NCBI RefSeq assembly: GCF_002259645.1
Contig: NZ_MWWV01000006.1
Coordinates: 186,001-250,000 of the forward strand
Direction: 5' to 3'
From: Bifidobacterium tissieri
GTDB taxonomy: Bacteria; Actinomycetota; Actinomycetes; Actinomycetales; Bifidobacteriaceae
DNA: 64,000 bases
Shown: piece by piece, positions 51,171-53,740 of the stretch
How the letters are laid out: every line of letters begins with the position of its first letter
Numbering within the stretch: position 1 is the first letter of the stretch
Notes under the pieces: model-generated
Database searches by the model: none
Told to the model about the DNA's origin: nothing
The model's input: only the letters and a program-made list of their open reading frames with translations
Made by a program: the position numbers and the translations under genes

Positions 51171-52115
51171 TCATTGCCCCAGCATGATGCTGACGATGAC
51201 GAAATAGATGGCGACCATATGGCAGGCGTATCCGGCGACGGTGCCGCAGTGGAAGATCTCGTGGAAGCCGAAGACCTTGGGCCACGGGTCCGGTTTGCGC
51301 AGTCCATAGACTATGGCTCCTGCGATATAGCAGATGCCGCCGGCGACGATAAGCCACACCACCACGGGACCCGCGAAGGGGGATTCCCAGAAGAAGCCGA
51401 GGAATGCGGCCCCGGAGACGCCGAAGATGATGTACACGATGGTATACAGCCAGCGTGGCGCCGAGATCCACACCACATGGATGAGCAGGGCCACCAGCGT
51501 GCAAGACCAGATGCTGATGAGGATCAGGTTCCTCCAGAAGGGTTCGAGCGCGAATGAGACCGGCGTGTATGTGCCGGCGATAAGCAGGAAGATATTCACA
51601 TGGTCGATGCGCCGCAGCACGTCGGTGACCTTGGGCGACCAGTCGCCAAGATGGTAGATCGCGGAATTGCCGAACAGGATCAGCGAGCACGCCATGAATG
51701 CCGCGCACGCCCATTTGAGTGATGCTGTGGGGGATAGGCAGATGAGTACGATGCCTGCGGCCAGTGCCAGTGGCGTGGCACAGGCATGGATCCAGCCGCG
51801 CATCGCAGGCTTTGGACGTCCGTGCACGTCAAGACGGATCTTGTGTATGCCGTGTGCCTTGTCCATGATGCGCTGGGCCTTGAGCTCTCCCTTGGCGATG
51901 ACGCGGTCGGCCTTGGCTCGCGCGCGTGCACGCACCTCATCGGCCTTGGCCTGACGCTCCTGAAGGTATGCCTCGCGCACCGCCTTGCGGGTGCGCTCCA
52001 GTTGCGCCGGACCGGGAAGGTCGTTGGTCGGAGCCATGCGGTTGCCGGACACCTTCCGCGGCTTGACGATCGTCGCTGCCGGCCGCCTTGATGCGGAGCG
52101 TCTCTTTCTGGTCAT
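51171..52115 (-). CDS. HlyIII/PAQR family membrane protein with long basic N-terminus
   Basis: Seven-helix membrane protein of the hemolysin III/adiponectin-receptor group, 314 residues. The core (about 105-314) has the three conserved parts: NSAIYHLGDW, IDHVNIFLLIAGTYTPV, and FGFHEIFHCGTVAGYACH, giving the zinc-type His/Asp/HxxxH set known for PAQR proteins. The first 100 residues are basic and form a coiled-coil-like segment (VRARARAKADRVIAKGE), not usual in the family. PAQR proteins affect membrane lipid balance. AAGGATACC precedes ATG 52115. The promoter has two palindromes. Confidence 0.88.
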   Translation of the reverse strand: MTRKRRSASRRPAATIVKPRKVSGNRMAPTNDLPGPAQLERTRKAVREAYLQERQAKADEVRARARAKADRVIAKGELKAQRIMDKAHGIHKIRLDVHGRPKPAMRGWIHACATPLALAAGIVLICLSPTASLKWACAAFMACSLILFGNSAIYHLGDWSPKVTDVLRRIDHVNIFLLIAGTYTPVSFALEPFWRNLILISIWSCTLVALLIHVVWISAPRWLYTIVYIIFGVSGAAFLGFFWESPFAGPVVVWLIVAGGICYIAGAIVYGLRKPDPWPKVFGFHEIFHCGTVAGYACHMVAIYFVIVSIMLGQ

Positions 52116-52134: not shown

Positions 52135-52164
52135 TTACGTTACCGTAACTTACGCTACCGTAGC
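52135..52164. promoter_or_regulatory. Two tandem palindromic operators with compensating changes
   Basis: Two adjacent 15-mers, TTACGTTACCGTAAC (52135-52149) and TTACGCTACCGTAGC (52150-52164). Each contains an 11-bp palindrome, GTTAC-C-GTAAC and GCTAC-C-GTAGC. The two differ at two positions only, and both changes keep the symmetry. They cover the spacer, the -10 box and the start region of the HlyIII promoter. Confidence 0.7.
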
Positions 52165-52175
52165 TATCGTGTCAA
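52147..52175 (-). promoter_or_regulatory. Promoter of the HlyIII gene
   Basis: On the minus strand: TTGACA (a perfect -35 box), 17-nt spacer, TAAGTT. One palindrome fills the spacer; the other starts inside the -10 box. Confidence 0.65.
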
Positions 52176-52258: not shown

Positions 52259-53740
52259 ATGGTTGATTTTTCACATCTTGTAGCGAACAATCCGGATTTC
52301 AATGATGCGGATCGCGAATGGCTACATCATCTTGTGGCCGACTGGCAGGTCATCGCCGACCTGAGCTTCGCCGACCTGCTACTGGTGCTGCCCGGCGCGA
52401 ACGGACAGTATATTGTGGCAGGACAGTGCCGTCCCTCCACGGTGATGTCCGTACGATTCGAGGATATGGTCGGATCGACGATCGAGGGTGAGGATGCCCG
52501 TGCGATCTCCAAGGCCATGACCGAGCAGAAGATCTCACGACTTGATCACTATCGTGCCGTGGGCAACACCACGGTATGCGATGTTTATGCGCCGGTTCGG
52601 CGCGAGGGCAAGGTGCTGGGCGTGGTGGTTCGCGAGACCAACATGGCCACCCGCATGCTCAACGGTCGATACGAATCGGAAAGCATCGCAGCCGGCAAGA
52701 ATCTCTTCGAGATGATTCCCGCGGGAACATTCCCGTATCGTGACGCCATCCTCAATCAGCGTCACAATGCCCGTGTATCCGATGGGTTCATCGTCCTCAG
52801 CGAGGACGGCATCGTGGAATACGCATCGCCGAATGCGATCAGCTGCTTCCGCCGACTGGGATCCGTCGACGTCATGGAGGGGCAGTCGCTGTCCCAGATC
52901 GGCACGTCCCTGATTCACGAGAATGACATGCTTCCGGAGACTCTGCCGCTGGTGCTCGCCGGCAAGGCCGCCGTCGATTCGGAGATCAACGCGAACCGTT
53001 CCACGGTGTCCCTGCGTTCCCTGCCGTTCTTCGGACCGCATGGTCGCACTGGTGCCGTGGTGCTGTGCCGCGACGTCACCGAGGTTCGTCGTCGTGAGAA
53101 GGAGCTGGAGACCAAGGATGCTGCCATCGCCGAGATTCACCACCGTGTGAAGAACAATCTGCAGGCCGTGTCCGCCCTGTTGCGTCTGCAGGCCCGCCGC
53201 ACCAAGTCCCCCGAGGTCAAGTCCGAGCTGGAGGAGGCCATGCGTCGTGTGGAGACCATCGCCGTGGTGCACGAGGGGCTGAGCCAGACCGCCGACGAAA
53301 TCGTCGACTTCGACAAGGTGATCGCCGACCTGCTGCGCATGAGTGTTGATCTGGCCACCAGCAAGGACCAGCACATTCGCATCTCCTATCTGGGCAAGTT
53401 CGGCATGATGCCGGCCCAGGATGCGACCCCGCTGTCGCTGGTGCTCACCGAGCTGGTCACCAACGCCGTGGAACATGGTTTCCAGGGGCGTACCGAAGGC
53501 AATGTGTGGATCTCCGTGGGCCGTGGAGGAAGCAGCCTCAACATCGTGGTGGAGGATGATGGCATCGGCTATACGTCGGAATCCGATCAGGGCATGGCGT
53601 GCTCCAGCGGCTCGGGATTGGGCACACAGATCATCAACACGTTCGTGAAGAACGATTTCGGTGGTTCGGTACGGTGGGAGCCGCGGCGTGACGGTGGTAC
53701 TCGTGTGGTGCTTGACATGAAGCTGCGTGCCGCCCAGTGA
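52259..53740 (+). CDS. pdtaS: PdtaS-type sensor histidine kinase
   Basis: Soluble histidine kinase of the HisKA_2 class, 493 residues. N-terminal GAF-like domain (about 1-150), a PAS-like domain (about 165-285), then DHp with EIHHRVKNNLQAVSALLRLQ (phospho-acceptor His about 294-295) and an HATPase with ELVTNAVEHGF and DDGIGY. This is the plan of mycobacterial PdtaS, which signals to the antiterminator PdtaR; no pdtaR lies here. Its neighbour whiB1 matches the mycobacterial order. ATG 52259 lies 7 nt after TAGCAT and has no ribosome binding site, so the mRNA may be leaderless. Confidence 0.92.
   Translation: MVDFSHLVANNPDFNDADREWLHHLVADWQVIADLSFADLLLVLPGANGQYIVAGQCRPSTVMSVRFEDMVGSTIEGEDARAISKAMTEQKISRLDHYRAVGNTTVCDVYAPVRREGKVLGVVVRETNMATRMLNGRYESESIAAGKNLFEMIPAGTFPYRDAILNQRHNARVSDGFIVLSEDGIVEYASPNAISCFRRLGSVDVMEGQSLSQIGTSLIHENDMLPETLPLVLAGKAAVDSEINANRSTVSLRSLPFFGPHGRTGAVVLCRDVTEVRRREKELETKDAAIAEIHHRVKNNLQAVSALLRLQARRTKSPEVKSELEEAMRRVETIAVVHEGLSQTADEIVDFDKVIADLLRMSVDLATSKDQHIRISYLGKFGMMPAQDATPLSLVLTELVTNAVEHGFQGRTEGNVWISVGRGGSSLNIVVEDDGIGYTSESDQGMACSSGSGLGTQIINTFVKNDFGGSVRWEPRRDGGTRVVLDMKLRAAQ

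Follow-up and report, generated by a model that had tools for sequence, protein, structure and literature searches.

A conserved pair of palindromic boxes upstream of a bifidobacterial HlyIII/PAQR gene, a probable operator of an unlinked TetR-type regulator

The window, a stretch of 64,000 nucleotides from Bifidobacterium tissieri, contains a HlyIII/PAQR gene and, divergent from it, the histidine kinase gene pdtaS, with a pair of similar boxes between them (Table 1). Against a model separate from those in the table, TIGR01065, the HlyIII/PAQR protein scores 125.6, under the cut-off of 172.2. Two adjacent 15-mers had been predicted here from the sequence, and are found at 52135–52149 and 52150–52164; on the minus strand, upstream of HlyIII/PAQR, the boxes read TACGGTAGCGTA and TACGGTAACGTA, with a 15-bp step. 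Their distance to the divergent pdtaS start, put at ~100 bp in the original prediction, was measured as about 97 bp from its ATG. A TTGACA-17-TAAGTT promoter, also predicted, is present under the sites and kept in all eight own-genus genomes with the pair. A simple sigma-70 scan called no promoter in the stretch upstream of HlyIII, and this promoter is therefore a consensus reading, with the start not mapped. None of the phage records matched the stretch.

Table 1. Features of the HlyIII/PAQR locus and the candidate regulator gene. Coordinates are window positions unless a contig is given.
Feature	Coordinates	Strand	Basis or remarks
HlyIII/PAQR gene, 314 codons, ATG at 52115	51171..52115	-	Pfam PF03006, E 8.5e-49; NCBIfam TrhA model NF011669 above cut-off
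Operator pair (putative) TACG-N4-CGTA-N3-TACG-N4-CGTA	52136..52162	-	sequence; conserved in own genus, family and class
Box 2, -10 edge across predicted start	52136..52147	-	+ strand reading TACGTTACCGTA
-10 hexamer TAAGTT, junction of both boxes	52147..52152	-	consensus reading
Box 1, within -35/-10 spacer	52151..52162	-	+ strand reading TACGCTACCGTA
-35 hexamer TTGACA, HlyIII promoter	52170..52175	-	consensus reading; same offset to pair in 8/8 own-genus genomes with the pair
pdtaS, histidine kinase, divergent neighbour, ATG at 52259	52259..53740	+	Pfam GAF_PdtaS, HisKA_2
Candidate TetR regulator, 268 codons	G000:C34:8043-8849 (this genome)	-	TetR_N HTH 57.9 bits, cut-off 24

A genome-wide scan finds the spaced pair at a single exact place in 2.87 Mb. 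The other places number eight, all at 3 mismatches in 16 and none better; the reversed-pattern control gave 29 places, a level that the eight do not reach. The 11-bp motif GYTACSGTARC matches the window exactly twice, against a mean of 0 in 100 shuffles, and nowhere else in the genome.

The symmetry of the boxes differs from that first proposed, in which each operator was an 11-bp palindrome with covarying differences. Among the 16 own-genus boxes (eight genomes) that palindrome is intact in six, while TACG-N4-CGTA, its centre offset by 2.5 bp, is intact in all 16. On these counts the 11-bp dyad was rejected as the operator, and its covariation is incidental. The flanks and the N4 of the boxes show no base pairing above shuffles. 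Conservation of the arms is tested by the own-genus boxes alone, since the family set was picked by matching the pair. Palindromic boxes over the promoter of the presumed target, as seen here at the sequence level, agree with a TetR-family operator. In some genomes, among them G038 (one mismatch) and G218, a further 15-bp step leads to a third box.

Own-genus genomes were reached through the HlyIII protein, independently of the motif, and eight of nine carry the pair upstream of HlyIII, the exception being G003. Within the family, the pair with at most one mismatch is found in 119 of 189 genomes. Twenty-seven loci are shown for genus g5 (L023–L049): 25 are upstream of HlyIII, 24 of these flanked by a pdtaS match, and L043 and L044 are second sites. 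In most family HlyIII loci read, pdtaS is the divergent neighbour. The three matches in genus g3 (L020–L022), with neither HlyIII nor pdtaS alongside, are probably due to chance. Palindromes not conserved upstream of orthologues had been named as grounds for giving the prediction up; the operators are conserved in related genomes, and, with the sites retained upstream of HlyIII orthologues, the claim that two operators in tandem overlie the promoter of a gene for membrane homeostasis survives.

The promoter is less constant in position than the pair. In all eight own-genus genomes the -10 is a TANNNT at the box junction and the -35 has the position -13 relative to the pair; among other bifidobacterial promoters, 18 of 37 have the -35 at -17, 4 bp further out, and TANNNT inside box 1 at a spacing of 16. 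The remainder comprise 17 of 37 without a hexamer at 5/6 matches and two with one elsewhere. The phase thus differs while the pair stays, and conservation of the promoter does not account for the pair.

A dimeric TetR-type regulator, encoded elsewhere in the genome, had been predicted to read the pair, and TetR-family genes were the class screened. A TetR_N profile search gave 101 matches in 13 genomes, of which 70 were clustered; clustering was complete except for G008 (3 of 22) and G053 (4 of 16). One group has members in this genome (G000) and in G008, G022, G034, G043, G053, G065, and G072, and none, in this clustering of 13 genomes, in G003, G057, G079, G126, and G129. The latter five have no near-exact pair; G034 and G065, with the gene, have degenerate or re-spaced pairs only. 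No TetR gene adjoins the pair, and the identified member is on another contig, in keeping with an unlinked regulator. A site in the TetR gene's own promoter, also anticipated, is lacking in all eight bifidobacterial genomes examined, and a linked or self-regulated TetR was rejected for the bifidobacteria; outside the family, TetR usually trails a site-bearing desaturase gene.

In the family at large, where counts of co-occurrence are not phylogenetically independent, this TetR (126 of 189 genomes) is found in all 116 genomes with both HlyIII and a site at up to one mismatch, and the site in none of the 39 with HlyIII but without TetR. In genus g6, HlyIII is present in 27 of 27 genomes, and site and TetR occur in the same six. 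Only three family genomes have a site without TetR; all are g3, and also lack HlyIII. Forty-eight HlyIII genomes lack a site at up to one mismatch: the 39 without TetR, and nine with it. Of these nine, G171 and G172 have pairs at 2 mismatches (that of G172 beside pdtaS, on a short contig), and G034, G170, and G173 at 3; G011 and G012, at 4 mismatches and hence at chance level, were read by eye as one box plus a half or re-spaced pair, and G065, at 5 and likewise at chance level, as two intact boxes with a 4-bp gap. G183 has no pair at up to 2 mismatches despite having TetR and HlyIII. Seven of the 39 TetR-less genomes were read, with best matches at 5–7 mismatches, like the reversed control at 4–7; no pair was seen in an eighth, G003. 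The joint absence in G003, 21 of 27 g6 genomes, and G009/G010 suggests several losses. One bifidobacterial genome, G046, has TetR with neither a HlyIII match nor a near-exact pair.

The bifidobacterial TetR scores 181–238 bits against TetRs linked to desaturase genes in other actinobacteria, against at most 53 for the other bifidobacterial TetRs retrieved; by sequence comparison it appears to be their counterpart. The DNA-contact region fits one pattern at 108 of 109 loci, 66 sharing one form, but this was given no weight because the loci were found with that same stretch. In 394 genomes drawn evenly from the class, the exact pair is present in 205 (75 of 138 genera) and TetR in 244: 202 have both, three the site only (G238, G271, G515), 42 TetR only, and 147 neither (Fisher p about 1.5e-64, uncorrected for kinship, these counts too being phylogenetically non-independent). 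The reversed-pattern control was rare in this search. Seven of the 42 TetR genomes without the exact pair were read: four have a 1-mismatch pair near TetR, one a 2-mismatch pair, and two none there.

Twenty-nine class loci were read, one per genome (the best listed), with gene classes assigned via tblastn to Pfam-checked members. Acyl-CoA desaturase genes come next in 18 and acyl-ACP desaturase genes in four; E1 dehydrogenase and nitronate-monooxygenase-like genes account for two loci each, and the remaining three have HlyIII, FadD, and a desaturase oxidoreductase gene with a DesA3-like gene after it, one each. TetR comes after the acyl-CoA desaturase gene at 17 of those 18 loci, giving the order site–desaturase–TetR. 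Among 28 same-contig pairs selected from the matches listed, site and TetR are 1.0–1.4 kb apart in 19, 3.1–5.6 kb in seven, and farther in two. For 80 TetR loci in named genomes, mostly Streptomyces and found with a query taken from a site-bearing locus, the exact pair lies 0.75–1.5 kb upstream of TetR in 72, and the reversed pattern in none. Sites in family f12, whose loci look mycobacterial, are at a DesA3-like desaturase gene and that of its oxidoreductase, and at three loci from other families of the order the site is flanked by HlyIII and a gene for undecaprenyl diphosphate synthase. The nitronate-monooxygenase-like gene is preceded by the pair in two genomes (L175, L189). Both genomes of the order in which the pair precedes an E1 dehydrogenase gene (L166, L167) also have one at HlyIII, which may point to control of precursors for branched fatty acids.

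These desaturases were sought in bifidobacteria by profile, with 0 of 101 over cut-off for PF00487 (eight weak matches) and 0 of 101 for PF03405. Bifidobacteria thus lack the desaturases yet keep TetR and site, and the regulator has therefore outlived its usual targets. More than one match is present in 18 g5 genomes; in G038 the extra match is the adjacent third box, and in the other 17 the second site is at FadD (seven), a HlyIII paralogue (five), biotin carboxylase (three), or elsewhere (two). Of the last two, G044 has an exact pair (L044:1501-1527) between nitroreductase and carbon-nitrogen hydrolase (nadE-like) genes, with no obvious lipid gene, and the site in G115 has no nameable gene downstream. 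G181 and G182 each have their 1-mismatch site at FadD, with that at HlyIII showing 2 mismatches. The biotin carboxylase sites (L060, L069, L338, in three bifidobacterial genomes) are 1-mismatch pairs upstream of the gene, one of them divergent from BioY, and may possibly provide a link to malonyl-CoA supply.

Several described regulators invite comparison. According to the part of the source available, the HlyIII/PAQR gene trhA (yqfA) of Escherichia coli is among the targets of FabR, a TetR protein that represses genes for unsaturated fatty acids, and eukaryotic PAQR relatives are tied to fatty-acid unsaturation (PMC9017321). A TetR linked to a HlyIII/PAQR gene and to unsaturation would be common to the two systems, but the targets elsewhere of the TetR studied here are desaturase genes rather than fabA/fabB, and three of its members score 26.0, 28.6, and 30.4 bits against the FabR equivalog NF008402, whose cut-off is 151. 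FasR of Mycobacterium tuberculosis is described, in the passages available, as an acyl-CoA-sensing TetR that activates fas-acpS and is released by long acyl-CoA (PMC7382501). It is the best sequence match of the bifidobacterial TetR (6o6n, 6o6o, 6o6p; E 2.9e-20) and its closest solved relative; it is also the best fold match, at 34% identity, for a predicted structure of a TetR relative from outside the family, a model built from nine sequences with a mean pLDDT of 68 (medium confidence) that bears on kinship only. By eye, seven of eight arm positions in one box match the oligonucleotide of the FasR crystal. Kinship is not membership, however: scores against the FasR equivalog NF053731 are 89.8, 109.6, and 115.7 bits for three members, far under the cut-off of 330, and identity with FasR was rejected. 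MadR was rejected as well, its consensus in the accessible portion of the source, TCTGTGxxxxxxxGT, being different (PMC8872791).

A likely described relative, judged by gene arrangement rather than by its own sequence, is SCO3129 of Streptomyces coelicolor. The passages available cite this TetR, associated with osmotic stress, as regulating SCO3128, SCO3130, and itself (PMC8303971), and term SCO3128 a putative fatty acid desaturase (PMC6585502); HlyIII and bifidobacteria are not mentioned in them. The Streptomyces site lies about 1.1 kb upstream of TetR, a distance like that in the site–desaturase–TetR loci read elsewhere. This arrangement is present in other actinobacteria; control of a linked desaturase and of the regulator itself is not found in bifidobacteria, which have no desaturase over cut-off and no site at TetR. 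At L324 and L325, in two f12 genomes, TetR has a glmU gene on one side and an mfd-type gene on the other, presumably also the neighbours of Rv1019, which is a probable mycobacterial counterpart. No pair at up to 2 mismatches was found near mfd at either locus. The reported target of Rv1019 (TetR, mfd-mazG) is mfd (as cited in PMC9579286), whereas the operator discussed here is at desaturase genes, also in other f12 genomes. A literature search on a HlyIII link in actinobacteria, mostly of listings and passages with subscription papers largely outside it, turned up no paper describing one.

We consider it highly probable that the pair serves as operator for an unlinked, lipid-responsive TetR repressor, elsewhere a regulator of desaturation and here almost wholly devoted to the PAQR gene; we infer its binding, its repressing action, and its ligand. 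One TetR dimer would sit on each box, reading the TACG arms, and, with the -35/-10 spacer, the -10, and the start all lying under the boxes, two dimers would repress HlyIII. Long-chain acyl-CoA might release the protein, by analogy with FasR; for this response the fold kinship in the medium-confidence model is the basis. Co-occurrence lends support to the predicted regulator type, as does linkage in operons of other actinobacteria, where this TetR would govern membrane desaturation (acyl-CoA and acyl-ACP desaturases and the oxidoreductase of a desaturase) and, in some genomes outside bifidobacteria, E1 dehydrogenase, FadD, or HlyIII too. In bifidobacteria the regulon would have shrunk to HlyIII in this genome, with FadD, biotin carboxylase, or a second HlyIII added in some relatives.

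The sign of regulation could differ, because FasR, described in the available passages as an activator released by long acyl-CoA (PMC7382501), is the closest solved relative: the same TetR and sites might activate HlyIII and desaturases as FasR activates fas. This is unlikely, given that in 8 of 8 own-genus promoters the boxes overlie the -10 as well as the -35/-10 spacer, a position from which bound protein usually keeps polymerase out, and that scores against the FasR equivalog are under its cut-off. A different regulator, co-inherited with TetR, might conceivably read the pair, and the screen, covering TetR-family genes and clustering 70 of 101 matches in 13 genomes, leaves some room for one; the TetR gene trailing the site-bearing desaturase outside the family makes it distinctly improbable. 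Control of pdtaS instead of HlyIII would suit the short distance from pair to ATG and the presence of pdtaS beside most bifidobacterial HlyIII loci read, but is very improbable, as second sites precede HlyIII paralogues without a pdtaS match (L062, L064, L339, L340, L346) and HlyIII with the pair adjoins an undecaprenyl diphosphate synthase gene instead at the three loci in other families of the order. That the repeats are just a conserved promoter with chance symmetry is scarcely credible: the -10 does fall inside the element, but promoter phase moves between genera under a constant pair, HlyIII genomes without TetR have no pair, and the reversed pattern is rare in the class.

Returning to the TetR repressor, we lean slightly toward the broader reading that bacterial PAQR (HlyIII) has long belonged to an old regulon for membrane unsaturation in actinobacteria, and that desaturase-free bifidobacteria have kept its acyl-sensing regulator as a near-dedicated PAQR switch. 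In that case the level of PAQR expression would reflect how the acyl pool stands even where desaturases are missing, much like FabR and trhA in E. coli though with an unrelated operator. Finding HlyIII grouped with desaturases under another TetR, which has an operator of its own and belongs to a distant phylum, would suggest that the link is general. Bifidobacteria would offer a clean test, since they have this sensor but no desaturase, and this genome has a single exact operator. Across the class, the 16-base signature also predicts lipid genes, and it provides a conserved but little-described regulator with a candidate operator.

One TetR sequence stands apart by origin: at L293, on a contig titled as a Bifidobacterium breve MAG, it aligns with TetRs from other actinobacteria, at 68% with one of Microtetraspora, and the contig is perhaps misbinned.
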